Shown here: positions 45,393 through 62,414 of the stretch, piece after piece
Numbering within the stretch: position 1 is the first letter of the stretch
How the letters are laid out: the number at the start of each line of letters is the position of its first letter
DNA from: Paraglaciecola sp. T6c
Lineage (GTDB): Bacteria; Pseudomonadota; Gammaproteobacteria; Enterobacterales; Alteromonadaceae
Length of the DNA stretch: 64,000 nt
Assembly (NCBI RefSeq): GCF_000014225.1
Contig: NC_008228.1
Location: forward strand, 4,340,001-4,404,000
Direction of reading: 5' to 3'
Made by a program: the position numbers and the translations under genes
Notes under the pieces: generated by a model
Told to the model about the DNA's origin: nothing
Databases searched by the model: none
The model's input: only the letters and a program-made list of their open reading frames with translations

Positions 45393-46520
45393 ATGACCAA
45401 TAAAAGCGTTGTACTTGCTACATCACTGACGTGTATGTCGCTAATCGGTTGTGGTGGTACGCACACAACTTCTTCTACTCAGGTTCAACTAACCAGTTCG
45501 ATAGAATCACAAAAAGCCCCTGGCAGTTCGTTTGATTTAAGCCATTGGTATCTCACCGTTCCGCTTGATGAGGACGGCGACCAAGTGTCTGACATATATG
45601 ATGTGGCGGATTTGCAGGGATTCTCTCATCCAGATTTTTTCTACCTTGATGAGCAAAATAATATGGTGTTCGCTACACCAAATCGAGCGGCCACAGAGCG
45701 CACATCAACCAATACGCGCAGCGAATTACGCTACATGCTTCGGGGTGAAGACACGTCCATTCCTGAGGGCGCTCCTGGCAACAACTTCGCTTTAGCGGCA
45801 CATAAAAATGCTCAGCAGTTTGCCGCTATTGGCGGGAAGTTAGAGGCAACCTTACACGTTGACCACGTAGCCACAAATGCGCAATACCCAAATAAGCCGC
45901 CCGCTTATTCCGTTGTCATCGGCCAAGTTCATGCCTTCCAATTGGATGATGAGCAGCAAAAAGCAGGATTTGGCTGGGGTAATGAACCTCTAAAAATTTC
46001 TTATAAAAAATGGCCAAACCACTCAACAGGGTCGGTATTTTGGACCTATGAAAGAAACTTAGCCACCAACGATCCTAACCGCATAGATATTGCTTACCCT
46101 GTTTGGGGCAGCAATTGGGATGACCCTAGCGACCCGGGTGACAAGGGCATCGCACTGGGTGAAGAGTTCAGCTATGAAGTAAACATTGTTGAAAATGTCA
46201 TGCACTTGGTTTTCACCAGTACCGAACACGGCACAGTTCATCAACACATTAACTTAGCGGATAACATCGACGCCAATGGCAATATCGACGAAGCGGATTA
46301 TCCTTTGGCGTACCAAGACGAAACGCTGTATTTCAAAGCGGGAGCGTATAACCAGTGCAGTACCAAGCAAAACGACCCTAGCTTTCGCTACCCAGGTTGT
46401 TCCGGCACTGGCGATTGGAAAACAGACCTAGCCAACGGTGACTATACCCAAGTCACATTTTCTTCATTAAAGGTTAGCCCTGCAACGCCTGTTCAAGGCA
46501 CTACAGGAGCACTTAAGTGA
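45393..46520 (+). CDS. Alginate lyase, PL7 family, lipoprotein (QVH type)
   Basis: 375 residues. The signal peptide ends in a lipobox (LIGC), so the enzyme is probably anchored to the outer membrane. The PL7 motifs are complete: NTRSELR (R109), QVH (Q178, H180) and YFKAGAYNQ (Y319), which hold the catalytic Arg/Gln/His/Tyr set for beta-elimination of uronan. In this family QVH is associated with preference for mannuronate-rich blocks and QIH for guluronate or mixed blocks. Its stop overlaps a possible GTG start of the PL6 gene, so the two are co-transcribed. Confidence 0.93.
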   Translation: MTNKSVVLATSLTCMSLIGCGGTHTTSSTQVQLTSSIESQKAPGSSFDLSHWYLTVPLDEDGDQVSDIYDVADLQGFSHPDFFYLDEQNNMVFATPNRAATERTSTNTRSELRYMLRGEDTSIPEGAPGNNFALAAHKNAQQFAAIGGKLEATLHVDHVATNAQYPNKPPAYSVVIGQVHAFQLDDEQQKAGFGWGNEPLKISYKKWPNHSTGSVFWTYERNLATNDPNRIDIAYPVWGSNWDDPSDPGDKGIALGEEFSYEVNIVENVMHLVFTSTEHGTVHQHINLADNIDANGNIDEADYPLAYQDETLYFKAGAYNQCSTKQNDPSFRYPGCSGTGDWKTDLANGDYTQVTFSSLKVSPATPVQGTTGALK

Positions 46521-46603
46521 TCATAAAAACAGAACTGAACTCATTACTTCCCATGCCTTTTCGTTTGCAAGGGGTACAAAAGAAAATCAGGAGTATAAGC
46601 AAC

Positions 46604-48874
46604 ATGCCCAAAGTGCCTAAAAGCCGTTTATCATCTATTTTAATACGATCTGTAAGACTACCAGCACTCGCGCTGGCTTTGCCACTGCTGACGTTTTCTC
46701 AATTGAGTCACGCTGCATTAGTTGAAAACATCAAACAGTTCAATGACGCTGTATCGTCCGTTAAGCCAGGGGACGAAATCGTCCTCGCAAATGGCTCATG
46801 GAATGATGTAGAGCTCGTGCTAAAAGGTAAAGGTTTGCCAGACAAACCCATTACGTTAAAGGCGCAAACGCCGGGCAAAGTCATTATCACAGGGCAATCT
46901 AATTTGGCGTTCTCTGGGGAGTATATTGTGATCTCTGGCTTAGTGTTTAAAGACGGTGCAACACCAACAGGCGAAGTCATCTCGTTTCGCACATCAAACG
47001 AAGACGTCGCAAATCACTCACGTGTGACCAATACCGTGATTGACAACTTCAGCACCGATTTACGTCAAATGTCTGATTTATGGGTGGCCATGTACGGCAA
47101 GCATAATCGCCTTGACCACAACTCCTTAGTGAACAAACGTAACCGCGGCGTAACAGTTGCCGTGCGAATGAACTCTGAAGCCAGTCGCAAAAATCATCAC
47201 ATCATTGAGTACAATTACTTTGGCCCTAGACAAATACTCGGCGCCAACGGCGGTGAAACCCTGCGTATCGGCACCAGTCATTTTTCTCGCGAGTACTCGA
47301 ACACCACAGCCCAGTACAATTACTTTGACCGCACAAACGGCGAGCATGAAATCATCTCCAATAAGTCCAGCGGCAATTCACTTATCAAAAATGTCTTTTT
47401 TGAAACCCAAGGCACGTTAACCATGCGCCACGGCCATTTCACTAAGGTGGAAGGCAATTACTTTTTAGGTAACCGTAAACCCAATACCGGCGGCATTCGC
47501 ATTATTAACGAAAGCCAAACCGTGAGTAACAACTATATGTACGGGTTAACCGGTAAACGCTTGCGCGGTGCGTTAGTGATCATGAACGGCGTACCTAACT
47601 CACCACCTAACCGCTACGATCCCGTTATTGATTCGGCTATGAACAACAACATTGTTATCGACAGCGACCACATTGAACTCGGCGCAGGTGCCGATGCCGA
47701 GCGCTCTGCTGCGCCTAGTACTTCTGAATTTAAAGGCAACATCATACTGGGTAAGTCTAATCTTGAACCTTTTACGTTGTACGACGATATGTCAGGGATT
47801 AATTTCGAGGGTAATTACCTAAACGACGAAGCCAGTACCCCCATTAAAACAGGTTTTGCTAGCACGCCTTATTCAGTTACGACCAACCAATATGGCTTAA
47901 AATCTCCCGATAAAGCATTACTCGATGAAATTGGTTTTGGCGAAGTGAAGCTGCCAGTAACAAAAGAAGAAGTAGGTGCTGATTTTTATCCTAAAAATGA
48001 AGCTTTGGTGGCATTTCAAAGCGGTAAAACCATCCACGTAAAAGCAGGTACAGATACTCTGACCAGCGCTCTGGCAACGAGCCAAGGTGGGGACGTACTG
48101 GTGCTCGAAAACGGCGCTGATTACCTGCTCACCAAGTTTGCCGAAGTACACCACCCAGTGACAATCATGGCTAAAGCAGGCAAAAAACCGGTTATTCGCT
48201 CACAAAAGCCTAACTTCATCAATATCGAAAATGGCGGTGCCTTAGAAGTTGAGAATCTGTGGTTTGATGGCGCTGAATCTCCTGATTACAAAGGGAACAC
48301 CATCATAGGCACCAGTGGCTACTCGATGAATATTAACTACAACTTGTCAGTGCGTAACGTGAAAGTGACCGACTTGGATGTGAATGGTTATTTTTACTTC
48401 TTTAAAGCCAACGCAGGCACCTTTGCTGACTCCATTGAAATCATCGATTCAGAATTTAGCAACATTACAGGTGCCATTCTGCAATTAAACCGTGAAGTCG
48501 ACGATTTAGGTGTGTACAGCGTTGAAAACCTTGTGATTTCGGGCAACACCTTCACCAATGTAAAAGAAGAAGTTGTCACCGTATATCGCGGTGGTACCGA
48601 TGAAAGTACCTTTGGCCCAATGGTAAGCGTCACCAACAACACTCTGACCAATGTAGGCAAAGGCTCTACACACAGATCAGGCGCGTCTATGTATTTTCAC
48701 GGTGTGCAAAAACTCAATATCTCTGAAACAAAATGGGATAACAGCGCACCACTGGAACTGTTCTTGACCAATGGCGGCCCCATCACAGTGATTGACAATG
48801 TTGAGATGAAGAACACCGATAAAATCCGTGCAAATAATGACGAATATGAAAGCTCAAATGTGACTTACGACTAG
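46604..48874 (+). CDS. Alginate lyase, PL6 family, two-domain
   Basis: About 756 residues: signal peptide (LPALALALPLLTFSQLSHA-AL), then two parallel beta-helix domains. The N-terminal domain has the PL6 catalytic pair, Lys254 in SNKSSGN and Arg275 in TMRHGHF, 21 residues apart as in chondroitinase B and AlyGC. The C-terminal domain (about 500-756) is a second right-handed helix. AlyGC from Glaciecola, of this architecture, is an exolytic guluronate-preferring enzyme. I start at the ATG at 46604, where the signal peptide begins (AGGAG 10 bases upstream); a GTG at 46517 with a good AGGAG overlaps the PL7 stop and would add 29 residues. Confidence 0.9.
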   Translation: MPKVPKSRLSSILIRSVRLPALALALPLLTFSQLSHAALVENIKQFNDAVSSVKPGDEIVLANGSWNDVELVLKGKGLPDKPITLKAQTPGKVIITGQSNLAFSGEYIVISGLVFKDGATPTGEVISFRTSNEDVANHSRVTNTVIDNFSTDLRQMSDLWVAMYGKHNRLDHNSLVNKRNRGVTVAVRMNSEASRKNHHIIEYNYFGPRQILGANGGETLRIGTSHFSREYSNTTAQYNYFDRTNGEHEIISNKSSGNSLIKNVFFETQGTLTMRHGHFTKVEGNYFLGNRKPNTGGIRIINESQTVSNNYMYGLTGKRLRGALVIMNGVPNSPPNRYDPVIDSAMNNNIVIDSDHIELGAGADAERSAAPSTSEFKGNIILGKSNLEPFTLYDDMSGINFEGNYLNDEASTPIKTGFASTPYSVTTNQYGLKSPDKALLDEIGFGEVKLPVTKEEVGADFYPKNEALVAFQSGKTIHVKAGTDTLTSALATSQGGDVLVLENGADYLLTKFAEVHHPVTIMAKAGKKPVIRSQKPNFINIENGGALEVENLWFDGAESPDYKGNTIIGTSGYSMNINYNLSVRNVKVTDLDVNGYFYFFKANAGTFADSIEIIDSEFSNITGAILQLNREVDDLGVYSVENLVISGNTFTNVKEEVVTVYRGGTDESTFGPMVSVTNNTLTNVGKGSTHRSGASMYFHGVQKLNISETKWDNSAPLELFLTNGGPITVIDNVEMKNTDKIRANNDEYESSNVTYD

Positions 48875-49007: not shown

Positions 49008-49769
49008 ATGACAAAATTTGTTGGAAAAAACGTACTTATTACTGCAGGTGCACAAGGTATCGGCGAAGCGATCAGCAAGCACCTGATCGATAACGGTGCA
49101 AACGTGGCTATTCATTATTTTTCTAGCAGTGATACGGCTAATAAATTACTTGAATATGCAACGAGTAAAGGGGTAAAAGCCGTTGCGATCAAGGGCGATT
49201 TAACCGATGAAGCCGAAGCCAATAGCCTTATCGAAAAAACAGTAGAGGCCCTCGGGGGCATCAATATATTGATTAATAATGCGGGCTCTTTGGTGGCAAG
49301 GCGCTCGCTCAACGATATGGATGCCGAGTTTTGGCACAAAGTTATGGATATAAACCTAACCTCCATGATGTTTGTGACCCGCGCTGCTGCGCCTTACTTA
49401 GCAAAAAATGAAAATAGCAGTATCGTCAATTTAGCGTCTCTTGCAGGTCGTAAAGGTGGCCACGCCGGCTCTTTAGTTTATTCCACCAGCAAAGGGGCTA
49501 TTTTAACTCTGACCCGCGCACTAAGCGCGGAGTTAGGACCACAAGGAACGCGCGTTAATGCGGTCGCACCTGGGCTGATTTTAGGTACCTCATTTCACAA
49601 TACCCACACCACTAAAGAATCGGCTGATCAAACCATCGCCGGCATTCCTATCCAACGAGCAGGCAACGCCGATGACGTAGCGCGAGCTGTGGTCTATTTG
49701 GCCTCAGAATATGATGGCTTCATCACAGGGGCGACGCTGGATATTAACGGTGGCGTTTACAACATGTAA
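49008..49769 (+). CDS. Short-chain dehydrogenase/reductase, probable DEH reductase
   Basis: 253 residues of a classical SDR: cofactor motif TAGAQGIGEA, NNAG (INNAG), catalytic Ser in NLASLAG and Y158-STS-K162, and the C-terminal ITGATLDINGG. Sequence alone gives only 'SDR'. The position between PL6/PL7 lyases and a sugar mutarotase makes reduction of 4-deoxy-L-erythro-5-hexoseulose uronate (DEH) to 2-keto-3-deoxygluconate the best guess; DEH reductases are SDRs of this length. It is the first gene of an SDR-RbsD-Nramp-GntK run. Confidence 0.8.
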   Translation: MTKFVGKNVLITAGAQGIGEAISKHLIDNGANVAIHYFSSSDTANKLLEYATSKGVKAVAIKGDLTDEAEANSLIEKTVEALGGINILINNAGSLVARRSLNDMDAEFWHKVMDINLTSMMFVTRAAAPYLAKNENSSIVNLASLAGRKGGHAGSLVYSTSKGAILTLTRALSAELGPQGTRVNAVAPGLILGTSFHNTHTTKESADQTIAGIPIQRAGNADDVARAVVYLASEYDGFITGATLDINGGVYNM

Positions 49770-49802: not shown

Positions 49803-50237
49803 ATGCTTAAAACAGCAGTAATACATCCTACTATTTTAGAGGCGCTTGGGCGCTCGGGTCACTTCGCGCAAGTTGTTATCGCTGATGGTAATTTGCCTGT
49901 GGCTGCCATGACCGGACCAAACTCAACCTTAGTGCACTTAAACTTTCGCCCAGGAATGTTAGATGCATTAAGCGTACTGGAGGGCATTCTTGAAGTATGC
50001 CCGATTCAAGGGGCTATCGTGATGGAAAAGCCTCCTGAGGCAAATGCCGAAATTCACACAGCATACCAAGCTCTATTAGGTGATGTGACTTGGGAAGCCA
50101 TGGAGCGCTGGGCGTTCTACGACAAAATCCGTGCCCCAGCCACCACCTTGATTATTCAAACCGGTGAACAACGCCGATTTGCCAACCTGATATTGACGGT
50201 CGGTGTCGTAAAAATGGCAGAAGAGAGTCGTTTTTAA
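49803..50237 (+). CDS. RbsD/FucU-type sugar mutarotase
   Basis: 144 residues matching the RbsD/FucU fold: catalytic His20 in LGRSGHFAQVVIADGNLP, and the C-terminal FYDKIRAPATTLIIQTGEQRRFANLILTVGVV (RTGE-xxx-YANxILxxGV type). Family members interconvert sugar anomers or ring forms. Here, between the SDR and the transporter genes, the substrate is probably an alginate-derived sugar acid, for example cyclic DEH. This is inference from position. Confidence 0.82.
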   Translation: MLKTAVIHPTILEALGRSGHFAQVVIADGNLPVAAMTGPNSTLVHLNFRPGMLDALSVLEGILEVCPIQGAIVMEKPPEANAEIHTAYQALLGDVTWEAMERWAFYDKIRAPATTLIIQTGEQRRFANLILTVGVVKMAEESRF

Positions 50238-50338: not shown

Positions 50339-51577
50339 GTGTCAGCATTCATTAGAGCTATTCTGAGTTTTGGTCCAGCGTTTTTAGCCATTGGCTACAC
50401 CATTGGCACTGGCAGTGTGACGGCAATGATTGTCGCAGGCAGTACCTTTGGCATGCAGCTGTTATGGGTTTTATTGTTAAGCTGCTTATTTTCAGGGGTG
50501 CTTATTTACGCCTACGGTAATTTTGCCTTGGTAACAGGAGAAACCGCGCTTTATAGTTTTAAGAAACACCTTAAATTCGGTAAGGTGATTGCGATCCTCA
50601 TCATCATAGGCGTGTCCTTTGGTCAGTGGAATTCCCTGACCGGTATATTAGGGATTTCCTCCAATATTTTATTTGAAATGATCGCCTTGTACTTCCCCGC
50701 TGTGGTTCCGCACAAGTATGCTGTAGTAGTAACAATTGCTGTGCTCGTTATCAGCATTATGTATGCAATATTACTCATAGGTAAGTACTCATTATTTGAA
50801 AAGATACTGGTAATTTTTGTGTCTTGCATGGGGCTATCTTTCATATTGTCGCTGTTTGTTGTGCACCCCATGCCCGCAGAAGTCGTACGCGGACTTATCC
50901 CCGTTATACCTGATGTCGTCGGCGGAAAAATGATGGTGGCTGCATTTGTAGGAACCACCATGGCCTCGGCGACGTTTTTGTCTAGACCTTTATTTATTCA
51001 AGGCAAGGGCTGGGGTATTGCTGACAGAGCACAACAAAAGAAAGATGCGATTGTTGCCGCAGTACTGGTGTTTATTATTAGCGGCTCAGTTATGGCCGTC
51101 GCCGCAGGGGCCTTGTTTCATGAAGGAAAACCAGTGACCGACGTGCTGGATATGGTGAATGCCCTTGAACCCATAGCAGGTAAATTTGCCCTGACGGTAT
51201 TCTTTTTCGGTACGCTCGCAGCGGGTTTGTCGTCAGTGTTCCCTTGTATGTTGATTGCCCCACTGTTAATTGAAGATTACCGCTCGGGTAAATTAGACAC
51301 ACAATCTACGCAGTTTCGTATTATCACAGGTCTCGCTGCGTTATTTGCCCTCACGATCCCAGTATTCGGTTTTAACCCTGTTAAAGGACAGTTATTAACC
51401 CAAGTCTTTAATGTATTTGTTCTGCCATTGGTTATTCTAGGGATCATTTTAATGATCAATAAGAAGAAGATGATGGGTGAGCATGCCGCGGGATACTTAC
51501 TCAACATCGTATTAGGCTTAGCGTTTATGTTTTCAATTTTGATTTCATTTAACGGTATTCTTGGCTTATTAGAATAA
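50339..51577 (+). CDS. Nramp-family transporter lacking the metal-binding motifs
   Basis: 412 residues with about 11 membrane helices. The N-terminal block GPAFLAIGYTIGTGSVTAMIVAGSTFGMQLLW aligns with TM1-2 of Nramp/MntH proteins. The DPGN motif of TM1 is GTGS (23-26) and the MPH of TM6 is A-S-A (209-211, GTTMASATF), so neither metal-coordinating motif is present. It is therefore unlikely to carry Mn2+ or Fe2+. It starts with GTG (GAGG upstream) and lies between the RbsD-type and GntK-type genes, so an alginate-derived sugar-acid importer is the best proposal. Confidence 0.75.
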   Translation: MSAFIRAILSFGPAFLAIGYTIGTGSVTAMIVAGSTFGMQLLWVLLLSCLFSGVLIYAYGNFALVTGETALYSFKKHLKFGKVIAILIIIGVSFGQWNSLTGILGISSNILFEMIALYFPAVVPHKYAVVVTIAVLVISIMYAILLIGKYSLFEKILVIFVSCMGLSFILSLFVVHPMPAEVVRGLIPVIPDVVGGKMMVAAFVGTTMASATFLSRPLFIQGKGWGIADRAQQKKDAIVAAVLVFIISGSVMAVAAGALFHEGKPVTDVLDMVNALEPIAGKFALTVFFFGTLAAGLSSVFPCMLIAPLLIEDYRSGKLDTQSTQFRIITGLAALFALTIPVFGFNPVKGQLLTQVFNVFVLPLVILGIILMINKKKMMGEHAAGYLLNIVLGLAFMFSILISFNGILGLLE

Positions 51578-51599
51578 TGAAGAAGAATAAGGGTACATC

Positions 51600-52088
51600 A
51601 TGATTGTAATTGTTTGCGGCGTTTCAGGAACAGGGAAGTCAACCATAGGTAAGATGCTAGCTGACGCCCTAGCACTCCCCTTTTATGACGCCGATGACTT
51701 TCACCCTGAGGCTAATGTACAAAAAATGCAAAGTGGCAGGCCGTTAAATGACGAGGACCGGCAACCATGGCTTGAGGACCTTGCCACTCAGTTAGCTAAT
51801 TGGGAGCATAAAAAAGGGGCCGTACTTGCTTGCTCTGCATTAAAAGCGGCATACCGAGAAACACTGGCGGCAAAATGCGCCGGCCCTATCGAGTGGATTA
51901 TCCTACATGGCTCAAAAGCCCTACTTACTGAGCGCTTAGGCGCGCGTAAAGGGCATTTTTTCGATCCTAAATTACTCGAATCGCAGCTCACTACATTAGA
52001 GCTACCCAATGATGTGTCTGTAGTGGACATACAAGCCCCACCAGAAAATATAGTGCAATCAATCGTGGCACGCTTAGCTGACTCTTAA
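51600..52088 (+). CDS. gntK: Gluconokinase-family (GntK) small kinase
   Basis: 162 residues with a P-loop at 7-15 (GVSGTGKST), the substrate block YDADDFHPEANVQKM and GRPLNDEDRQPWL, and LACSALKAAYRE. This is the GntK family, which phosphorylates gluconate at C6. In this cluster it might accept another six-carbon sugar acid such as 2-keto-3-deoxygluconate; that is inference, because KDG kinases are normally PfkB-type. It starts 22 bases after the transporter and 71 bases before the second PL7 gene. Confidence 0.85.
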   Translation: MIVIVCGVSGTGKSTIGKMLADALALPFYDADDFHPEANVQKMQSGRPLNDEDRQPWLEDLATQLANWEHKKGAVLACSALKAAYRETLAAKCAGPIEWIILHGSKALLTERLGARKGHFFDPKLLESQLTTLELPNDVSVVDIQAPPENIVQSIVARLADS

Positions 52089-52159
52089 GTCCTGTTTTGA
52101 GGACGCAGCAAGTAGGCTGTAAACGCTAAGTTGAATCAGAAATTAAAGGAGTACCCATT

Positions 52160-53233
52160 ATGAAGACTAAAACGATAGGCGTGATAGCCTTGAGCCTGCT
52201 AACACTGGCTGGGTGTAATACGACCAATAACGAAAGTGCAAAAACGCCAGTAGTGCCCGCTGACAAATTTGATCTAACCCATTGGACAATTACCATCCCC
52301 ACGGATAACAACCATGACGGGAAAGTCGACGGGATAAGCGCAGCGAAAATACAAACCTTCCAGCATCCTGACTTCTTTTACCTTAATGGTGACGGCAATA
52401 TGGTTTTCGCCGTGCCGAACAAAGCTTTTACTACACCCAACTCCAGCAACACTCGCAGTGAGTTACATCAAGTCGTTGCTGACATGGATGCCAAGAGTGA
52501 TAAATTCGCGGATAACTTTGCTTTGCAAAATAACAAAGACGCACAGCTGTACGGTCAAATAGGCGGTAACTTACAAGCTAGCCTTGCAGTGAATCATGTG
52601 GCGAAACGCGCTAAGTACCCGAATAAGCCACCTGCGTTCTCTGTTGTTGTGGGCCAGATTCATGCCACCAAGGACAAAGAAAGAGTCGCTGAAGGTGAGG
52701 GCTATGGTTATGGCAACGAGCCGTTGAAAATCTACTATAAAAAATGGCCAGAACATAAGTACGGTTCGGTTTTTTGGAATTACGAGCGTAATCTCGCCAA
52801 AGAAAACCCAGACCGCCAAGATATAAGCTATTCGGTATGGGGCACCCCGTGGGATGAACCAACAGACCCAGGTGAGCAAGGTATCGCCCTTGATGAATCC
52901 TTCAGTTATGAAGTGAACGTATATCACAATACCATGTATTTAACGTTCACTAGTGAGCGCCTTGGTACAAAGGAATTTGAGATAAACCTAGCTAATAACA
53001 TCGATGCCAATGGGCAAGTAGATAAGCTTGACCACCCGAACGGTTACTCTGGTGATGCGAATTTCTTCAAGGCCGGAGCATACGATCAGTGCAGTATTAA
53101 AGACGACCCAGGGATGTGGTACCCAGCATGTTTAGGCACAGGTGATTGGCAAACAGATAAGAAAAATGGCGACTATGCTCAAGTGACATTCTCGCGTTTA
53201 ATAGTTGGACCTGCTAAAGAACCGCAAAAATAA
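52160..53233 (+). CDS. Alginate lyase, PL7 family, lipoprotein (QIH type)
   Basis: 357 residues with a lipobox (LTLAGC). The PL7 motifs are NTRSELH (R99), QIH (Q166, H168) and FFKAGAYDQ (Y308). It is clearly paralogous to the PL7 enzyme at 45393-46520; the two share long blocks such as YPNKPPAFSVVVGQ and GYGYGNEPLKI. The QIH form suggests a different block preference (guluronate or mixed). A strong AAAGGAG site precedes the ATG. Confidence 0.93.
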   Translation: MKTKTIGVIALSLLTLAGCNTTNNESAKTPVVPADKFDLTHWTITIPTDNNHDGKVDGISAAKIQTFQHPDFFYLNGDGNMVFAVPNKAFTTPNSSNTRSELHQVVADMDAKSDKFADNFALQNNKDAQLYGQIGGNLQASLAVNHVAKRAKYPNKPPAFSVVVGQIHATKDKERVAEGEGYGYGNEPLKIYYKKWPEHKYGSVFWNYERNLAKENPDRQDISYSVWGTPWDEPTDPGEQGIALDESFSYEVNVYHNTMYLTFTSERLGTKEFEINLANNIDANGQVDKLDHPNGYSGDANFFKAGAYDQCSIKDDPGMWYPACLGTGDWQTDKKNGDYAQVTFSRLIVGPAKEPQK

Positions 53234-53255
53234 AGGAGCACAGAGAAATCAAACA

Positions 53256-53311
53256 GCAAAAAAGCCATCAAATCAGCCGTTATTAAGTACGCTAGTTTGA
53301 TGGCTTTTTGC
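53256..53311. terminator. Bidirectional terminator between PL7 and manA
   Basis: GCAAAAAAGCCATCAAA pairs with TTTGATGGCTTTTTGC (one bulged base) around a loop of about 23 bases, with A and T runs on both sides. Confidence 0.82.
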
Positions 53312-53403
53312 GTTGTGATAACACTATAACTATAAGCGAGCTAAACAAGCAGCGCTTGCTAGCTATTTTCTAGTGAAATGCGACGAATCTAAGCGTTAGC
53401 AGG

Positions 53404-54480
53404 CTATGTGTTACCGGGATAGCACTCTAAAATCGACAAACCTGATGCCGATTCGTACTCAAACTCCGTCACTCCCGCAGGGCAGAAAAAGCGCTCCCAC
53501 TGTTTTAACTTTGTTACGTCATCACCAATACGCAATGTACCCGCGCCTTGTGTTACCACGCCATAGAAAAAGGCCTCTTCATTGCGCTTGAACGTACTTT
53601 TCACGGTGGCACGCCTAACGGTAAAACAAGAGGTATCCTTAGCACCGATCAGCTCTTCTAACGTATTACCTTGCTCATCAGTGCTAAGCACCTTGGGGTG
53701 ACAACGAAATTCAGCATCAACTTGCTCAGCTGGTACTGGGCTAAAATCAAACACATCTAATGCGGTCTCAATTCCCCGATCCATGAACCTCGCTTGCTCG
53801 GGGATAACATATCCGCAGCGCTCAAACTCAAATCTGACCGCCAGATCAGAAGGCTCCATTATCTCCAACATCAGAATGCCCTCGCCCAGCGCATGGGGGC
53901 GGCCTCCGGGAAGCAAAAACACATCCCCCGGCTTGACGGGAATGGGATCGAAACAGCTTTCAATTGATTTAATATCTTGGTTTTCTATCCACTCTTTTAA
54001 CTGAGCGCGACTAGGCGGCCGCTGAAAGCCCGCGTAAATATAAGGCTCACTGACATCTTCGCGGGTTTGTAGAATAACGTAAGCCTCTGTTTTGCCTCTT
54101 GGTAAACCCAAACGCTCTTGGGCAAATTGCCGTGTGGGATGCGCCTGAAAATGCAATCGCGTGGCGCTATCGAGGTACTTAACCAGCGGAATATCCTCAA
54201 GCGTACGCTCAGTGTCACCCGTTTTACCCAAAAAATAGTCCTTGTTTTGGGTCAGTAAATCTCGAAAAGGCACCGTCTGCCCGTCGTCACCAGTGACCAT
54301 GGCTAGCCCTTCAGAAATGTGCTCGCGGCCGACGTTTCGCGCTTCAACCGTGGAGCCAATCCAGTCTTCTGGAAAGCTAGAATCTTCGGGGGGCTCTTTT
54401 CCTTCGATAGTATCTAGCAGCTTACCGCCTTGATAGGTACGCCACACACGATTGGCATTGAATTTAAAAATCTGACTCAT
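53404..54480 (-). CDS. manA: Mannose-6-phosphate isomerase, class I
   Basis: 358 residues of a type I cupin. The zinc ligands are present: Q112-A-H114 in HFQAHP, E132 in KTEAYVIL and H196 in PGGRPHALGEG. It interconverts mannose-6-phosphate and fructose-6-phosphate. I chose the ATG at 54480 because GGAAA lies upstream and the protein begins there with the family's FKFNANRVWRTYQGGK; a reading from 54561 adds 27 residues. It ends the uxuB-uxuA-transporter-manA operon. Confidence 0.88.
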   Translation of the reverse strand: MSQIFKFNANRVWRTYQGGKLLDTIEGKEPPEDSSFPEDWIGSTVEARNVGREHISEGLAMVTGDDGQTVPFRDLLTQNKDYFLGKTGDTERTLEDIPLVKYLDSATRLHFQAHPTRQFAQERLGLPRGKTEAYVILQTREDVSEPYIYAGFQRPPSRAQLKEWIENQDIKSIESCFDPIPVKPGDVFLLPGGRPHALGEGILMLEIMEPSDLAVRFEFERCGYVIPEQARFMDRGIETALDVFDFSPVPAEQVDAEFRCHPKVLSTDEQGNTLEELIGAKDTSCFTVRRATVKSTFKRNEEAFFYGVVTQGAGTLRIGDDVTKLKQWERFFCPAGVTEFEYESASGLSILECYPGNT

Positions 54481-54632
54481 AAGATTATTTCCATGACTAG
54501 TATCGGAAATGAGAGTTGACCTCATCAGCCGAAAATTCGAAAAATACAGCTCTAATAACAACAGAATAAAGCCTTTAAGTGAGTGCTGTTACTCAATTAA
54601 CACAGTCAAGAGGCGTCCAGAGCGTTGTGAAT

Positions 54633-55889
54633 TTACATCGCTTGCAGGGTAGAAAGAATGCCGTTGTAGCTCATGTAACTCATGACCAACGCAAAGACAA
54701 AGATCAGCGATAAGAAAACATTGGTTATAGTGGAAAACTGATGTTTGCCCATTAACGCTTTCTTATTGCCGATGTAAAAAATACAGCCCACTGTCGCCGG
54801 TAACACTAAGGCGCCAAATGCTTGAGAGCTGACCATTACCGCAATGGGCTTAGCATTAAAAATCGGCACAATTAATCCCAAGCAAGAGATCACAAGCGCC
54901 ATAATGCGATAGCTTGGTCTTTTTAAGTCTGGCTTACGCTCATGAAAATCATCTAACAACCAAGGCAGTAAAGCCACATTAGGAAACTGCGACGATACGC
55001 CAGCGGCAATCAGCCCGATAGTGAAAATAGCCACCGCTGCAGAGCCCGCCAAAGGCTCTAGTAGATTTATCATTTGGGTAACATGAACCAAGGTAATCCC
55101 TTGTACATACAAAGAGCCCGCTGCCGCTGCCATTATTGATGTGCTTACAATAAACATTAAAAAAGCTGAGAACAGCGCATCGCGATTTTGAGTTTTCAGA
55201 TCTGCCAAAGTCCAACCCGCCTCTTTTACCAGTATGGTACGCAGAATGAACAGCCCTGAGAAAACCGTAGTACCCACCATAGATGCTATAACCAGAAATG
55301 AGCTTTTGCCGGGCGCAGTATCCGGTACGTTTGGTACCATCCCTTGGAGTATTTCGATTGCGGGGGGCATTAGGATAGCGAAGTTAATTAAAAAGCATAA
55401 CGCCATGATGCCTACGAACAGAGCCAGTACCTTTTCGAATACTTCCGTTTTACCAATTAGAAAAATCACATACACAAAGGCGATAAAAAACAGTGCAAAG
55501 TACAGCTGGGAAATCCCCCCTTCAACGAAGTTCTTTGACCATTCGTAACACACGTCAGCAAGAATACCCATTACGCCTATTACGCTTCCGCAAATTTGAG
55601 TGGTAAGGGCCACAATAAAGAAAATACTGACCGCTGGATGTATATGTCTTTTGAAGGACTGCAATGCGGTTAAACCGGTGACGAGGGTAAACTTGCCAAA
55701 CAGTTGAATAAGGAAGTAAGTGATCGCGCAGGAGATAAAGATGGTCCATAAAAGTGACATGCCATAATCAGCACCTGCTTTTGCCATGGCAGTAACGCTG
55801 CCCGTGCCCACTGTGAAACCAAACAAAAATATGCCGGGCAGTAGCGATTTAAAAAACGTCTTCATGTTGCTCATATTAGTTCGTACCAT
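54633..55889 (-). CDS. Second Nramp-family transporter lacking the metal-binding motifs
   Basis: 418 residues with about 11 membrane helices, paralogous to the transporter at 50339-51577 (shared VGTGSVTAM, LLWTIFISC, GKFTLVTG and TALQSFKRH). TM1 has GTGS (28-31) where MntH has DPGN, and TM6 has F-S-G (210-212, GTTVFSGLF) where MntH has MPH. It follows uxuA in the uronate operon. The start could also be the Met at codon 6 or 9. Proposed role: import of a hexuronate or its derivative. Confidence 0.75.
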   Translation of the reverse strand: MVRTNMSNMKTFFKSLLPGIFLFGFTVGTGSVTAMAKAGADYGMSLLWTIFISCAITYFLIQLFGKFTLVTGLTALQSFKRHIHPAVSIFFIVALTTQICGSVIGVMGILADVCYEWSKNFVEGGISQLYFALFFIAFVYVIFLIGKTEVFEKVLALFVGIMALCFLINFAILMPPAIEILQGMVPNVPDTAPGKSSFLVIASMVGTTVFSGLFILRTILVKEAGWTLADLKTQNRDALFSAFLMFIVSTSIMAAAAGSLYVQGITLVHVTQMINLLEPLAGSAAVAIFTIGLIAAGVSSQFPNVALLPWLLDDFHERKPDLKRPSYRIMALVISCLGLIVPIFNAKPIAVMVSSQAFGALVLPATVGCIFYIGNKKALMGKHQFSTITNVFLSLIFVFALVMSYMSYNGILSTLQAM

Positions 55890-56009: not shown

Positions 56010-57209
56010 CTATTGCAGCACTGATAAAGCACGGATAACGCCGCGCACTTCAGCTAAGCCTTTCATGCGGCCTATGCCTGAATATCCAGGGTTAACGGTT
56101 TTGCCAATATCTCCCATCATTTGATGGCCGTGATCTGGGCGAATGAAAATGCCTAAGCTGTCAGCACTTTCTTTTGAACGACGCGCTTCTTCATTCAGCA
56201 ACTCTTTAACGACCTGCACCATGTCGATGTCGCTATCAAGGTGACTGGCTTCATAAAACGAACGCTGTTCATCTGGGTCACGACTCACCCCACGCAAATG
56301 TGAAAAATGGATACGCGGGCCAAACTGTTTAGCCATTGCAGGTAAATCGTTATCAGGCCTACTGCTGTAAGTGCCCACGCACAAGGTAATGCCATTTGAT
56401 TCACTAGGCAGCGCCGCAAACAGCAGCTCTAAATCATCAGCGGTACAGATGATCCGTGGCAGGCCTAGCATGTCTCGAGGGGGATCGTCTGGATGGATGG
56501 CAAGCTTGACGCCCATGGCTTCAGCCCGAGGCAGTACTTTAGATAGAAATGCAAACAAGTGACTGCGCAGCACATCACTGCTAACGTCTTTGTAATTGGC
56601 AAGCATGGCGCGAAAATCGTCTATTCCATAACTGTCTGTCATTCGCCCAGGTAAACCCGCAATGATGTTATTGGTCAGTTTGTTTTTTTCTTGCTCTGAC
56701 ATTTCATCAAAAACGTGCTTGGCTTCTTTGAGTTCTTCTGCACTGTATTCAGCTTCTGCGTTTTCGCGCTGTAAAATAAACAAATCAAAAGCGGCAAACT
56801 TTTTCTGATCAAAACGCAAAGCATAAGCACCTGTTGGCAGCTTAAAATTAAGGTCTGTGCGCGTCCAATCAATGACGGGCATAAAGTTGTAGCAGATCGT
56901 TTTAATGCCACACTTTGCCAGATTCTCCATAGAGAGGATCCAGTTTTCTATGTATTTTTCATGGCCTGGTCGCGCCAATTTGATGTCTTCGTGAACAGGA
57001 ATACTTTCAACCACACTCCACGTTAACGGCGTTAGACCTTGCTCGCACTCTTCAATCAACGCTTGATGTTGGCGTATAGCCTCAATGCTCCAAACCTCAC
57101 CGGTAGGAATAGTATGCAGCGCACTCACCACATCTGTGGCGCCAGTTTGTCTTATTTCGTTTATGGTCACGGGGTCACTCGGCCCAAACCATCTCCAGGA
57201 TTCACGCAT
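56010..57209 (-). CDS. uxuA: Mannonate dehydratase
   Basis: 399 residues (E. coli UxuA has 394), matching from MRESWRWFGPSDPV through CYNFMPVIDWTRTDL to the metal-binding HPDDPP, HFSHLRG and RPDHGHQM. It dehydrates D-mannonate to 2-keto-3-deoxygluconate, the same intermediate made from alginate. It lies 42 bases after uxuB in an operon. Confidence 0.96.
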   Translation of the reverse strand: MRESWRWFGPSDPVTINEIRQTGATDVVSALHTIPTGEVWSIEAIRQHQALIEECEQGLTPLTWSVVESIPVHEDIKLARPGHEKYIENWILSMENLAKCGIKTICYNFMPVIDWTRTDLNFKLPTGAYALRFDQKKFAAFDLFILQRENAEAEYSAEELKEAKHVFDEMSEQEKNKLTNNIIAGLPGRMTDSYGIDDFRAMLANYKDVSSDVLRSHLFAFLSKVLPRAEAMGVKLAIHPDDPPRDMLGLPRIICTADDLELLFAALPSESNGITLCVGTYSSRPDNDLPAMAKQFGPRIHFSHLRGVSRDPDEQRSFYEASHLDSDIDMVQVVKELLNEEARRSKESADSLGIFIRPDHGHQMMGDIGKTVNPGYSGIGRMKGLAEVRGVIRALSVLQ

Positions 57210-57251: not shown

Positions 57252-58712
57252 TTATGCAAAACAATGCACGATTGCTTCTTCGACTCCCATGCCATTGATA
57301 TAATCATGGTATCCGTGTACTGACGCCATAAAGCCCGTGTCACTGAAAAAGCTAAACTTGTTTGCCCCCGCCAAGGTAAGAAATGCCAGCACATCAGACG
57401 AAGCACCGGTTGATGAAGAGTTTGTGAACTCATCGATTAACGGGTCGTTAAGGTCGCCTCTTACCAACGCCTTATGAATAAAACATACCCATGCGGCAAC
57501 AGCGAAAGCTAAATAGCGGGTATCAACACTTTGCTTGAGTGCATCATCGATACTGGGGAACCAGCGTTGTTGGATTTTTTGTGAGCTATCTGTTCCCACT
57601 TGCAAGGCTGCGTAAGGAAGGTTGCCATTTCGAAAACGAGCAAATACCTGGGCTATATAGTGCTCAGCTTGAAGGCCATCAGGCACGCTGGTCACAGGCA
57701 TTACATTTAGTTTGAGTGCTTGCTCGGTGAATTGGGCAAGTGTTGGACGTTTTAGCGCTTCATGAATAAATCGGTCCCCAACTAAATACCCAAGCGCTGC
57801 AAGCATGGAATGCCCCGCATTGAGAAAGCGTAATTTAACCCGTTCAAAAGGCGCTATATCGTCAACAAAAAGCGCACCCACCTTATCAAATGGCGGGCGG
57901 TCGCCTGCAAAATTATCTTCGATAATCCACTGGGTGAAGGGTTCTGCGGCGACGGGCGCGGCATCTTGAACGCCTAGCTCTTGGGCGACTTCAGTTTTTA
58001 ATAGCTCGTCGGTCGCTGGGGTGACTCTATCTACCATCGACGCGCTAAAAGCGACATTTTCATTTACCCAACTCACCGTTTCTGGGCTGTGCTTCGCCAG
58101 TAACATATGCACCCCATCCCGTAGGCGCTCACCACCAGCATTCATGTTGTCGCAACATAGTAGCGTTATTGGGCTATCCCCCTTGGAGGCCCTTTTGATT
58201 AGGCCTGCGGCCAGATAACCATAGGTAGTTTTGGGTGCTGTAAGCGATGCTAGATCGTTGGCTATATCGGTACTTTCAAGATCAATAACGCCGTTTTTAA
58301 GGTAATAGCCTTTTTCGGTGATAGTCGTCGTAACTAACTGGGTTGGTTCACTCGCCAGTAAATCAATTAGCGCTTGTGGATTTTCAGGCCCCACCGCCAT
58401 ATTTTGAATCGCGCCAACGACACGAAAACGAGTCTCTTTTTCACCTAAAATCGCCAGCGTATACAAACAGTTCTGGGGGGCAAGGTTGTCACGCATTTTT
58501 GCTGAGCGAAGAGATACACCTGTTATTCCCCAACGCGTTTCACCTTGATTGAGCAGTGCGTCGCAATATGCGGCTTGATGAGCTCGATGAAAATTACCTG
58601 CACCAAAATGGACAATACTGGGCAAAACAGCACCTAGGGCATAGTTAGGCTTCTGAACGGTGTCGGCCACATTTAGCATGGAAGAAATGCTTAGTCGTTC
58701 TATGTTCATCAA
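57252..58712 (-). CDS. uxuB: Fructuronate reductase (mannitol dehydrogenase family)
   Basis: 486 residues, the same length as E. coli UxuB. The N-terminal Rossmann region (IVHFGAGNFHRAHQAAY) and the catalytic Lys/Asn/His block KLRFLNAGHSML are intact. The family also includes mannitol 2-dehydrogenase; pairing with uxuA makes NADH-linked reduction of fructuronate to mannonate the better call, but mannitol (another brown-algal carbon source) cannot be ruled out. It is the first gene of the minus-strand operon. Confidence 0.88.
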   Translation of the reverse strand: MMNIERLSISSMLNVADTVQKPNYALGAVLPSIVHFGAGNFHRAHQAAYCDALLNQGETRWGITGVSLRSAKMRDNLAPQNCLYTLAILGEKETRFRVVGAIQNMAVGPENPQALIDLLASEPTQLVTTTITEKGYYLKNGVIDLESTDIANDLASLTAPKTTYGYLAAGLIKRASKGDSPITLLCCDNMNAGGERLRDGVHMLLAKHSPETVSWVNENVAFSASMVDRVTPATDELLKTEVAQELGVQDAAPVAAEPFTQWIIEDNFAGDRPPFDKVGALFVDDIAPFERVKLRFLNAGHSMLAALGYLVGDRFIHEALKRPTLAQFTEQALKLNVMPVTSVPDGLQAEHYIAQVFARFRNGNLPYAALQVGTDSSQKIQQRWFPSIDDALKQSVDTRYLAFAVAAWVCFIHKALVRGDLNDPLIDEFTNSSSTGASSDVLAFLTLAGANKFSFFSDTGFMASVHGYHDYINGMGVEEAIVHCFA

Positions 58713-59375: not shown

Positions 59376-62300
59376 ATGGGACACAAACTATCTAAAATTA
59401 CCTTAGCGGTGTTATCAGCTACTTCGTTAAGTTTCGCTTCATCCGCACTTGCTCAAGAAGCTCAGCCAGTTGAAGAGAGAGACGTCGAAGTCATCGCTGT
59501 ATCAGGAATACGTAGTTCACTTACGAGTGCTCTTCTAGAAAAGCGTGAAACAAATAACCTGATCGAAGTCATTGAAGCGGTAGACATCGGCAAGTTACCA
59601 GACCAAAACTTGGCTGAGGTACTGGAAAACGTAACAGGTATTCAAATTACGAGAACAGCAGGTATCGGTACCGGCGTGCAGATTCGAGGCAGCAATGCTA
59701 ACCGAGTTGAAATTAACGGGGCCTCAACGGTAGGTTCAGGTTCTGGTCGTAGCGGAATGAATTTTGAAGATTTGTCTGCGGCGATCATTGCAGGAGTTGA
59801 AATAACCAAAGCGCCGGAAGCAAAAACCACCGAAGGTTCTATAGGCGGCACGATCAATCTACGTACTATTCGTCCTCTTGAATTAACGGAGACTTTGGGC
59901 TCTATCCGCTTGCAAGGTGAAGACAGTAGCTTAACAACTGATGGCGTGCAGCCAAGGGTTTCAGGTGCATATGGCGATAACTGGGAACTTGACTCTGGTA
60001 GATTTGGTTTTGTTATCAGCGGTAGCTATACCAAACAAGAAGCGACTTCATTTCGTCCACGCCTCGATCGTGATGGCAGTTTAGTTGAAAATGTTAACGC
60101 GGATGTTATTCGAAGCGGGGAGTTAGAGGATCAAGCTGCAGATAGACCTATAGCCCAATCGTTCGATTTTCTTGGTATTCAATTCTTGAACCAAGAATTG
60201 GAAAACTTCGAGTATGAAACGACCAACATCGCGACTACATTTGAATTTGCACCGAACGACAACATGAAATTTTTCTTCGATGCGGTCATTACTGACCAAG
60301 AGCGTCGTCAAGATAGCACACGTGTACAGGCGTCTGGAGTAGGCAGCGTATTGAACTATAGTTTGCCAACTGAGTTTGAGACCGTTAATTTTGGCTCTCT
60401 TGATGGCGTGAATTTAGGCAGTATTCAAGCTGCAGTGAGAGGCACAATTCAGCCTAATTTGGGTGTTGACGATGATGATCCTAATCTTCGCTTTAACAGT
60501 GATACTGGAGCGCGGATCACAGACACTGAAATATTCAGATTAGGTGGTGAATGGCAAGGTGAAAACTTGTTCGCAAGTTTTGAGTTTTCAAGCGCGAGCT
60601 CTGATACTGAAACTCCTTCACTTAATACTCAGTTGAACTTTATTAATCCGAATCCGCTTACACCGCTGGACAATCTCGATGAAGACGGTAACCCAACCGC
60701 TGACACCAGCAACGACAATAGTGTGCCATTTATTTATGATCTAACCGGTGATTCATTGGCGTTTGGCATAGATTTCGCTTCACCATTTGCACCCACCGTA
60801 GCCGATTTATTAAATCCTAACAACGTAGTGCTTGATCAGGTCGATTTGACGCGCAGTACAACTGAAAACTCAGAAGATGCCTTTCGCACCGATTTTACTT
60901 ATTTCATAGATGATTCCATTGTTACTTCTGTAGATTTTGGTTATCGCTACAATAAAACTGAACACAGCGCAGTCAGCATTTCAGACCGTATTGGAGGATT
61001 CAGTAAGTTAGTAGATAGCCCTAATGGCTCATTGTTCTCAGAGTTATTAGTTGAAGGCCCGGATCATTTTGGGGATGCTGATGGTAGAGAATTAGCTTTT
61101 CGTAATTTCTTGATTGTCGACCCAGACCGTGCTTTCAGTGATCGAGATGGAACTTTGGAGATACTGGAGTCGGCTATTATTGCCCACGGCGGTAATCAAG
61201 ATTTAGCAAACTTAGTACCTGATTCTTCTGAGATTTTTAGCATCGAAGAGAAAACTCATGCTTTGTATGCACAAGCTAACTTTGAGTACGAAATGCTCCG
61301 CGGTAACATCGGGGTTCGCCATATAGAAACAGATATTGAATCTATAGGTAACACTGAGATAAATGGTGTTGTCTCTGCAGTAACAAACAAAGGCGATTAT
61401 AGTTATACACTCCCTCGTTTAAACCTTGTTGCAGATGTTGCCGAAGACGTTGTGTTGCGTCTTGGTTGGGGTAAAGATATTTTGCGTCCTAACTTCGGTG
61501 ACTTAAACACATCTGTATCGTTTGGCACCAACGAGAACCAGTCTGTTGAAATTGGTAATGCAGGGCTTGAACCAGAAGAAGTAACCTCTTTTGACTTGTC
61601 AGCTGAATGGTATTTTGCTGAAGCTGCGGTTGTCAGCATCGGTTATTTCAAGAAAGATCGTACCAACTTATTTGTGACTAACTTAGAAAGTGCAACCCTT
61701 GATGCTAACGGGTTACGAGATAGCAACCCTGCTTGTTCAGGTGGCGGTATCTACAACCCTGCTGTTCAACCAAACGTGTTAGGTGACCCAAACACAACAG
61801 GCTTGTGTGTTGACGTTGAAACGTTCTTTAATGACTCAGCTACAACCACTCAATCAGGTGTAGAAATGGCATTTCAGTATGACCTTTCTAGCTTTGAGGA
61901 TGATCTAGGTTGGGCGTCAGGCTTCGGTATTCTAGCTAACTACACTGTGCAAGAATTTGACGGCGGTTCAGCTTTCTACACCTCAGCCACCCGCGGTACT
62001 GATGTATTCAATGCAATAAACGGTGTTTACGATGACAGTCAATTTGTAAAAGTGACGTCCGAGCGAGGCTTACTCGACTTTTCCGAGAATGCCTACAACT
62101 TTACTTTGTATTATGAAAAGTATGGTTTATCAGCTCGCGTGCGCTATACATGGCGTGAAGCATTCCGCACCGAGGATACCGCAGCGGGTGCGAGCTTGAA
62201 CTCAACGTTAGGTTTCCCAGTTGTAACACATGACAGAGGACAGCTTAATGCCAGTATCAGTTATGATGTGAACGATCAGTTAAACTTGGGTGTTGAAGCC

Positions 62301-62414
62301 GTCAACTTGACCGAGTCTGATATTACTCAGTCTTGCGTGAACGAAGATGCTTTACTGTGTGCTCAGGGTATAACAGACCGTCGGATTACCTTTGGTGCAA
62401 GTTATCGCTTCTAA
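59376..62414 (+). CDS. TonB-dependent receptor (second alginate-region receptor)
   Basis: 1012 residues of the same large subfamily as the receptor at 42227: signal peptide (cleavage at SALA-QEA), VEVIAVSGIRSSL, plug hallmark VDIGKLPDQNLAEVLENVTGIQI, VQIRGSNANRVEINGA and EGSIGGTINLRTIRPLEL, and a barrel ending RRITFGASYRF. It precedes the PL17 oligoalginate lyase gene and is divergent from the uxu operon, so oligo-uronide import is likely. CTAGGAGA before the ATG is a good ribosome binding site. Confidence 0.88.
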   Translation: MGHKLSKITLAVLSATSLSFASSALAQEAQPVEERDVEVIAVSGIRSSLTSALLEKRETNNLIEVIEAVDIGKLPDQNLAEVLENVTGIQITRTAGIGTGVQIRGSNANRVEINGASTVGSGSGRSGMNFEDLSAAIIAGVEITKAPEAKTTEGSIGGTINLRTIRPLELTETLGSIRLQGEDSSLTTDGVQPRVSGAYGDNWELDSGRFGFVISGSYTKQEATSFRPRLDRDGSLVENVNADVIRSGELEDQAADRPIAQSFDFLGIQFLNQELENFEYETTNIATTFEFAPNDNMKFFFDAVITDQERRQDSTRVQASGVGSVLNYSLPTEFETVNFGSLDGVNLGSIQAAVRGTIQPNLGVDDDDPNLRFNSDTGARITDTEIFRLGGEWQGENLFASFEFSSASSDTETPSLNTQLNFINPNPLTPLDNLDEDGNPTADTSNDNSVPFIYDLTGDSLAFGIDFASPFAPTVADLLNPNNVVLDQVDLTRSTTENSEDAFRTDFTYFIDDSIVTSVDFGYRYNKTEHSAVSISDRIGGFSKLVDSPNGSLFSELLVEGPDHFGDADGRELAFRNFLIVDPDRAFSDRDGTLEILESAIIAHGGNQDLANLVPDSSEIFSIEEKTHALYAQANFEYEMLRGNIGVRHIETDIESIGNTEINGVVSAVTNKGDYSYTLPRLNLVADVAEDVVLRLGWGKDILRPNFGDLNTSVSFGTNENQSVEIGNAGLEPEEVTSFDLSAEWYFAEAAVVSIGYFKKDRTNLFVTNLESATLDANGLRDSNPACSGGGIYNPAVQPNVLGDPNTTGLCVDVETFFNDSATTTQSGVEMAFQYDLSSFEDDLGWASGFGILANYTVQEFDGGSAFYTSATRGTDVFNAINGVYDDSQFVKVTSERGLLDFSENAYNFTLYYEKYGLSARVRYTWREAFRTEDTAAGASLNSTLGFPVVTHDRGQLNASISYDVNDQLNLGVEAVNLTESDITQSCVNEDALLCAQGITDRRITFGASYRF

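Follow-up and report, generated by a model that had tools for sequence, protein, structure and literature searches.

What do two Nramp-like proteins carry when their genes lie among genes for alginate and uronate breakdown? The question is raised by a 64,000-nucleotide stretch of the genome of Paraglaciecola sp. T6c (NC_008228.1, positions 4,340,001 to 4,404,000), referred to here as the window, which encodes two such proteins, transporter 1 (50339-51577) and transporter 2 (54633-55889). Metal transport is what Nramps are known for, and their evolution has been discussed as a change of metal. Our analysis suggests that both proteins are Nramp-related (LeuT-fold) secondary transporters that have lost the metal site and serve carbohydrate catabolism, transporter 1 with 4-deoxy-L-erythro-5-hexoseulose uronate (DEH) or 2-keto-3-deoxygluconate (KDG) as its substrate and transporter 2 with a mannuronate-like substrate. 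We assign this reading a probability of about 0.6. As far as sequence comparison can tell, both probably carry sugar acids or related sugars, because the metal-binding residues have been lost and because the branch to which they belong is found mostly among sugar-breakdown genes.

The initial annotation of this DNA had recognized both as Nramp-fold proteins, and this was borne out. Both open reading frames (ORFs) are intact, and both match almost the complete Pfam Nramp profile, PF01566, with scores (Table 1) above its cut-off of 29.8 bits. The AlphaFold2 models (mean pLDDT of 87.2 for transporter 1 and 89.0 for transporter 2, pTM of 0.87 for each) have helices broken at transmembrane segments TM1 and TM6, and the top Foldseek matches of both include BfraNramp, EleNRMT and DraNramp (in the order given for transporter 1). 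Chance resemblance and pseudogenes were therefore rejected as explanations. The two proteins are 36% identical to each other, and the closest named relatives of transporter 2 include those of P. mesophila KMM 241 (96% identity) and Paraglaciecola sp. 20A4 (91%). Because the NCBIfam model “Nramp family divalent metal transporter” accepts both (68.8 and 62.4 bits for transporters 1 and 2, respectively; cut-off 50), automatic annotation would label both as metal transporters.

In DraNramp, D56, N59 and M230 coordinate Mn2+ (PMC10185341), and E124, D131 and E134 form the proton path in TM3 (PMC12873925). Alignment with DraNramp and BfraNramp confirmed that the TM1 motif DPGN is replaced by GTGS in both transporters and that the TM6 motif MPH is replaced by ASA in transporter 1 and FSG in transporter 2. 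When we mapped the DraNramp numbering onto the profile alignment, the three TM3 acids corresponded to L, S and G in the GTGS-family consensus. GTGS was present in all 110 distinct sequences compared, the window pair included (L127 and the doubtful or unrelated ORFs L122 and L128 were left out; L numbers denote loci), and D-P-G-N was present in 10 of 10 canonical rows. This invariance excludes a chance origin of the motif, but for the loci found by pattern scan it is partly by construction, as one of the two scan patterns held GTGSV. All 21 Bacteroidota loci found by profile search and fetched, for which the motif was not part of the search, carry GTGS as well. Two further positions distinguish the group: an arginine in TM6b (R217 of transporter 2) and an aspartate (D314 of transporter 2), each invariant in the 110 GTGS sequences, stand where all ten canonical rows have histidine and glycine, respectively. 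R217 might be a substrate or gate residue, although this is a guess. Thus, the proteins share the fold and the PF01566 match with canonical Nramps (SLC11) and lack DPGN, MPH and the acidic residues of TM3. In having the Nramp fold without DPGN, MPH and the TM3 path, they belong to the paraphyletic Nramp-related group (PMC12873925). Membership among the canonical Nramps was rejected on the grounds of motif loss and a separate place in the tree.

This tree, built by a quick search from 92 rows (55 GTGS, 17 GPGT, 10 DPGN, 3 DDDPSG, 1 DNDAGG and 6 others, with L122, L128, L198, L207 and L208 absent), puts the GTGS rows on one side of a single branch (SH-aLRT 99), apart from the DPGN, DNDAGG and GPGT rows. 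L202 and L200 have long branches. The sub-branches track gene neighbourhood: the one with transporter 1 is associated with alginate/KDG loci, and the one with transporter 2 with UxuA and a phosphomannose-isomerase-like gene. Genes of the GH2, GH20 and NagB-like types are found near members of a third sub-branch, and GH109-type genes near those of a fourth, in which L203 has NagA/NagB-like genes (single genes in the latter two were partly named by eye). The group is labelled in the tree as Bacteroidota, Pseudomonadota, Planctomycetota, Lentisphaerota, Kiritimatiellota, Calditrichota and Fidelibacterota. A GTGS Nramp was found in 20 of 296 Bacteroidota genomes (22 matches in the profile search, the sample's centre genome included), in 2 of 199 Planctomycetota genomes (one being the sample's centre genome) and in 4 of the 148 genomes from the order to which the window belongs, one of these being the window's own. 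Scanning the species-genome collection by pattern yielded at least 597 stretches, at least 569 of them encoding a relative, and 80 were kept as the nearest loci. The matched stretch of the GTGS gene contains one in-frame TAA in each of G675:C41 (L137, L191) and G688:C62 (L150, L203). The window's genome (one contig, 5.19 Mb, 100% complete) also has a GPGT-type Nramp (G000:C1:4604148-4605323; L001, L210), around which pxpABC-type queries gave no match in 19.5 kb, and a fourth, very distant Nramp-like protein (G000:C1:1549416-1550228; L004), whose neighbours are a TetR-type regulator and a GFA-like protein (both by eye).

Gene neighbourhoods were compared using a tblastn marker panel over each fetched stretch in full (at most about 10 kb to each side), with genes called by a simple longest-ORF script. 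The loci were the 80 nearest, 21 of the 22 Bacteroidota profile matches (20 from other genomes plus a second copy in the centre genome), and 20 control Nramp loci of the same phylum, hand-picked over the range of profile scores. At least one carbohydrate marker was present at 64 of the 80 nearest loci, 17 of the 21 Bacteroidota loci and none of the 20 controls, which is the conserved place in carbohydrate operons expected of a carbohydrate transporter. The neighbourhood test proposed in the initial annotation, which set uronate genes against metal genes, came out clearly for the former. Short-chain dehydrogenases/reductases (SDR; 25/80, 6/21 and 1/20) and transporters of the major facilitator superfamily (MFS; 11/80, 4/21 and 0/20) were not counted as markers because these families are common. 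UxuA was near the Nramp gene at 44 of the nearest loci, and a phosphomannose-isomerase-like gene at 32. Similar numbers were obtained when the six ORFs on either side of the 80 nearest genes were clustered unlabelled and named afterwards: UxuA 44, phosphomannose-isomerase-like 31, TonB receptor 23, SDR 22, UxuB-like 16, PL17-like 15, GntR 13, PL6-like 11, PL7-like 10 and MFS 8.

As the panel came from the target loci, Pfam counts over three neighbours on either side provide a more neutral check. These covered 66 and 53 proteins (21 loci) for the two target sets and 102 proteins (17 loci) for the controls, L226-L228 being excluded from this control set and from the operon count, due to a wrong frame in high-GC DNA, but kept in the marker count. 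Among the families listed (25 of 42 and 25 of 56 for the targets, 25 of 127 for the controls), the target neighbours included GH2, TonB, SSF, PfkB, PL6, PL7, KDPG aldolase, GFO/IDH/MocA, GH109, GH88, NAGidase and GH20, with no iron repressor or FeoA. The control neighbours were led by 5-oxoprolinase subunits, with two each of iron-dependent repressor, FeoA and cation ATPase, and also two proteins of the PTS EIIA type, whose domain takes its name from sugar transport. Operon-mates (same strand, gaps of at most 200 bases) were present at 71 of the 80 nearest loci, and at 62 of these 71 the operon contained no second polytopic membrane protein by hydropathy count. Five Bacteroidota loci (L188, L189, L190, L193 and L195) share a conserved operon of GTGS Nramp, GH2-like, GATase1-like and SSF symporter genes near a TonB receptor, a putative sugar locus.

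Within the window, the neighbours are those that had been claimed: SDR, RbsD-type and GntK-type genes beside transporter 1, and uxuBA ahead of transporter 2 (Table 1). Cluster 1 runs from a TonB receptor through PL7-like, PL6-type, SDR and RbsD-type genes to transporter 1, the GntK-type kinase and a PL7 lyase. An RbsD/FucU-type gene occupies the same place in four relatives (L021, L024, L025 and L045), and its product may take the place of KdgF, opening the DEH ring. Cluster 2 lies on the opposite strand in the order UxuB-like, UxuA, transporter 2 and isomerase-like protein, followed by a divergent TonB receptor and a PL17-like lyase. The isomerase-like ORF, for which the ATG at 54486 was used, extends to 54561 with a TTG start; the protein matches B. 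subtilis mannose-6-phosphate isomerase 1qwr at 6.8e-12. The UxuB-like protein scores 289.2 bits with the fructuronate reductase model PRK15037, below the cut-off of 603, and slightly higher (298.9 bits), likewise below cut-off, with a D-arabinitol 4-dehydrogenase model. By a simple hydropathy count, each Nramp is the only polytopic protein of its own cluster. The claim that each is the sole inner-membrane transporter of its cluster therefore holds inside the window, but more alginate-type genes lie 5.8-12.5 kb beyond the window end, among them an MFS transporter, a PfkB kinase, a PL6-type lyase, GntR and an SDR (the SDR by eye), so other candidates exist in the wider alginate region. A histidine-rich cation-efflux-like protein (L241:3076-4230, by eye) is encoded immediately beyond the PL17-like lyase gene but on the other strand; it could be a metal gene near cluster 2, though it is not part of the Nramp operon. 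Scanning the window for Rfam families and tRNAs gave no match, and no 16-base palindromic site common to at least 4 of the 11 intergenic regions of both clusters was found.

Table 1. Features of the two clusters in the window (positions count from the first nucleotide of the window)
Feature	Coordinates	Strand	Evidence
TonB-dependent receptor, head of cluster 1	42227..45208	+	ORF, named from sequence by eye
Second PL7-like protein	45393..46520	+	ORF; resemblance to 52160-53233
PL6-type (chondroitinase B family) lyase	46517..48874	+	PF14592 1.5e-112
SDR (FabG-like), candidate DEH reductase, operon-mate upstream of transporter 1	49008..49769	+	PF13561 1.7e-57; NCBIfam FabG subfamily 222.5 bits, cut-off 222; short gaps
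RbsD/FucU-type mutarotase, directly upstream of transporter 1	49803..50237	+	PF05025 7.3e-30
GTGS-type Nramp-related transporter 1 (sub-branch 1)	50339..51577	+	412 aa, GTG start; PF01566 199.4 bits
GntK/IdnK-type kinase, candidate KDG/gluconate kinase, 22 bases past transporter 1	51600..52088	+	TIGR01313 156.3 bits, cut-off 113.75
PL7-type alginate lyase	52160..53233	+	PF08787 2.9e-53
Class-I phosphomannose-isomerase-like protein, next gene after transporter 2; candidate mannuronate/fructuronate isomerase	53404..54486	-	Weak Pfam MPI_cupin_dom, below cut-off
GTGS-type Nramp-related transporter 2 (sub-branch 2)	54633..55889	-	418 aa, ATG start; PF01566 178.8 bits
UxuA mannonate dehydratase	56010..57209	-	TIGR00695 504.8 bits, cut-off 199.55
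UxuB-like fructuronate reductase (mannitol dehydrogenase family)	57252..58712	-	PF01232, PF08125
Divergent TonB-dependent receptor	59376..62414	+	ORF, named from sequence by eye
PL17-like oligoalginate lyase, cut by window end	62691..63998	+	PF05426 4.5e-13; full protein (L241) also PF07940

In the mechanism we propose, the lyases would free sugars outside the cell, the TonB receptors would pass them into the periplasm, and the GTGS proteins, with TM1 and TM6 providing alternating access, would carry the small products across the inner membrane. The SDR and the GntK-type kinase would receive DEH or KDG through transporter 1. The import of D-mannuronate (or fructuronate or mannonate) would fall to transporter 2, after which the phosphomannose-isomerase-like enzyme might convert mannuronate to fructuronate, UxuB fructuronate to mannonate, and UxuA mannonate to KDG. 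The fold, the lost motif, the place in the tree and the recurring gene neighbourhoods were observed here; transport as such, its direction, the substrates and the isomerase step are inferred.

Use of glucuronate proceeds through UxaC, then UxuB and UxuA (PMC6353982). UxaC was not found in the window's complete genome, so classical UxaC-dependent glucuronate use was rejected there, and fructuronate must therefore have another source. In a search of 24 genomes, some of them draft or metagenome assemblies, UxaC was missing from 18 of the 21 with UxuA near the Nramp gene (the window's and 17 of 20 others); it was present in the genomes of L053, L056 and L060, and also in those of L024, L052 and L079, which have no UxuA near the Nramp. 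DEH, KDG or hexuronates had been proposed as substrates of the branch. For transporter 2 this has to be narrowed: given the absence of UxaC, mannuronate, fructuronate or mannonate is a better match than glucuronate. The enzyme acting on mannuronate could be the distant phosphomannose-isomerase-like protein at 53404-54486; other candidates are AGE-type proteins (cf. L074:11299-12489), one of which (by eye) directly follows the Nramp in four other loci, in the place of the isomerase-like gene. Phosphomannose isomerases and AGE-type enzymes interconvert mannose and fructose forms, and the role is suggested here because mannuronate/fructuronate interconversion is the same step on an oxidized sugar. 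The term “mannuronate isomerase” was not found in the literature searched. The route that we propose, which we have not found described, would thus consist of an importer, a phosphomannose-isomerase-like or AGE-like mannuronate isomerase, UxuB and UxuA, leading to KDG without UxaC. A broader claim, somewhat less likely to be right than wrong, would be that the GTGS group as a whole is made up of permeases for sugars and sugar acids, its sub-branches differing by the sugar carried (DEH/KDG, mannuronate, mannose, hexosamines), with the mannuronate sub-branch using this UxaC-less route.

Several observations weigh against sugar-acid transport. Panel markers are missing at 16 of the 80 nearest and 4 of the 21 Bacteroidota loci, and no obvious sugar gene was seen among the neighbours read at the marker-less L028, L030, L034, L037, L039, L061, L066 and L202. 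(Among the four Bacteroidota loci, L198 is at a contig end, L200 is on a short contig, L201 has GH109-type neighbours by eye, and L202 has no recognized sugar gene.) A UxuB-like gene is nearby in only 16 of the nearest loci, the origin of the marker panel biases it toward the targets, and no transport, binding or mutant data on the GTGS group were found in the literature searched. One CutC-family protein, a name linked to copper, is present among the target neighbours. UxuA is a metalloenzyme, next to which a metal supplier would be plausible. The window's genome showed no DPGN-type Nramp, nor did 11 of the 13 non-GTGS matches (L122 and L125 apart) from 12 other GTGS-bearing genomes, so a metal role may not be redundant in them. 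Moreover, the MFS transporter lies among alginate genes past the window end, so DEH could enter otherwise, and a second polytopic protein (MFS, SSF, TRAP or other) is present in the operon at 9 of the 21 Bacteroidota and 9 of the 80 nearest loci.

Some of these points favour our main rival, which we consider unlikely: that the proteins import divalent cations for the metal enzymes of sugar operons (UxuA, the phosphomannose-isomerase-like protein and the lyases) through a metal site altered as in EleNRMT. EleNRMT still moves Mg2+ and Mn2+ without DPGN (PMC12873925), B. subtilis YcsG/MntG, encoded in a 5-oxoprolinase operon, has been reported to be an Mn2+ importer (PMC10448178), and both Pfam and NCBIfam class the window pair with metal transporters. 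However, the GTGS motif contains no acidic residue, Met-Pro-His of TM6 is gone from the window pair and from the family consensus, and the TM1 motif is constant although the neighbours change, from alginate enzymes through mannosidases to hexosamine enzymes. Apart from the one CutC, the families listed for the targets lack the iron repressor and FeoA seen beside controls. We regard as less probable still that the proteins are general carriers of carbohydrates, neutral and amino sugars (mannose, N-acetylglucosamine, N-acetylgalactosamine) included, with uronates as one case and transporter 2 feeding mannose-like sugars to the isomerase-like enzyme. In sub-branch 2, GH38/GH92-type mannosidases (by eye) accompany the Nramp and isomerase-like genes at L072, L078 and L086, and other sub-branches adjoin GH20, NAGidase, GH109 and NagB/NagA-like genes (the last by eye). 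This context of mannosidases, hexosaminidases with NagB, and GH109 is wider than the initial annotation foresaw; its idea of a separate Nramp branch in sugar-gene surroundings stands, but “sugar acids” may be too narrow, as those sub-branches point to mannose or hexosamines. For the window itself, UxuA, a sugar-acid enzyme found near so many of the nearest relatives too, argues otherwise, and no mannokinase was recognized among the scanned genes beside the pair. Export or exchange of a by-product (e.g. KDG or pyruvate overflow), or sensing, with import left to MFS, SSF or TRAP carriers, seems very improbable; the second carriers in Bacteroidota operons, the MFS gene past the window end and the MFS relatives near other loci would suit it, but most nearest loci with operon-mates have no second carrier in the operon.

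If a large group of Nramp-related proteins does carry sugars, the Nramp fold must have started out as, or later turned into, a carrier of organic solutes, like its APC relatives. Many genes would have to be renamed, since the GTGS group is liable to be named “metal transporter”, and a candidate would be at hand for the inner-membrane step in the use of alginate and mannuronate by marine bacteria. The reading also predicts activities of the isomerase-like and RbsD-like neighbours that enzyme assays could test.

How do these proteins compare with known systems? No proposal of a sugar-carrying Nramp was found among the papers listed in the literature searches, so one may have been missed, nor was anything found on Nramp together with alginate lyase under the full name “resistance-associated macrophage protein”. 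A transcriptome paper on Zobellia (PMC5613140) and a paper on Catenovulum (PMC7953866) do not mention Nramp in their main texts. The claim that no such system has been described needs two qualifications. In the alginolytic systems of Alteromonas sp. 76-1, what is probably the same gene in the same setting (compared by description, not by sequence) is drawn as “Nramp, metal-ion transporter” in a supplementary figure legend, its function not being discussed in the part seen (PMC6431674). Growth on 5-oxoproline requires PxpT, which TCDB classes as an Nramp and for which the authors do not exclude a metal role (PMC13274462); the homologue of PxpT, YcsG, is reported as an Mn2+ importer (PMC10448178). 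The substrate is thus disputed, but PxpT is a genetic precedent for an Nramp importing an organic acid.

Like the GTGS proteins, PxpT/YcsG (MntG, the “G-motif 3” group) are Nramp-related proteins of an organic-acid catabolic operon, and the GPGT rows, which we take to represent them and which stand in for PxpT and YcsG in the alignment and the tree, have glycine for the TM1 aspartate. Unlike them, the GPGT rows carry GPGT and form a separate group. The pxpABC-type (5-oxoprolinase) genes are found at 4 of 7 GPGT control loci; among the 101 target loci only L189 matched, with two of the three pxp queries at its edge, and it has another Nramp about 10 kb from its GTGS gene. Membership in the GPGT (PxpT/YcsG) type was rejected on these grounds. 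EleNRMT and the NRMT-like Mg2+ transporters (7qia; TM-score up to 0.86) are likewise Nramp-related without DPGN, but the TM1 stretch of EleNRMT keeps an aspartate, and the DNDAGG-type row L217, the sole stand-in for EleNRMT and its like in the tree, is placed apart from the GTGS group. A 2026 preprint calls the Nramp-related groups entirely uncharacterized, except for the NRMT-like group and G-motif 3 (MntG) (PMC12873925). With the canonical Nramp/MntH proteins (SLC11; DraNramp, BfraNramp 10ky), the GTGS proteins share a full-length LeuT-type fold with broken TM1 and TM6 (Foldseek TM-scores mostly 0.7-0.85); they differ in their motifs, in the TM3 proton path, in their branch and in residing mostly in sugar operons. 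The proposed role is that of the ExuT-type MFS hexuronate transporters, from which they differ in fold and family.

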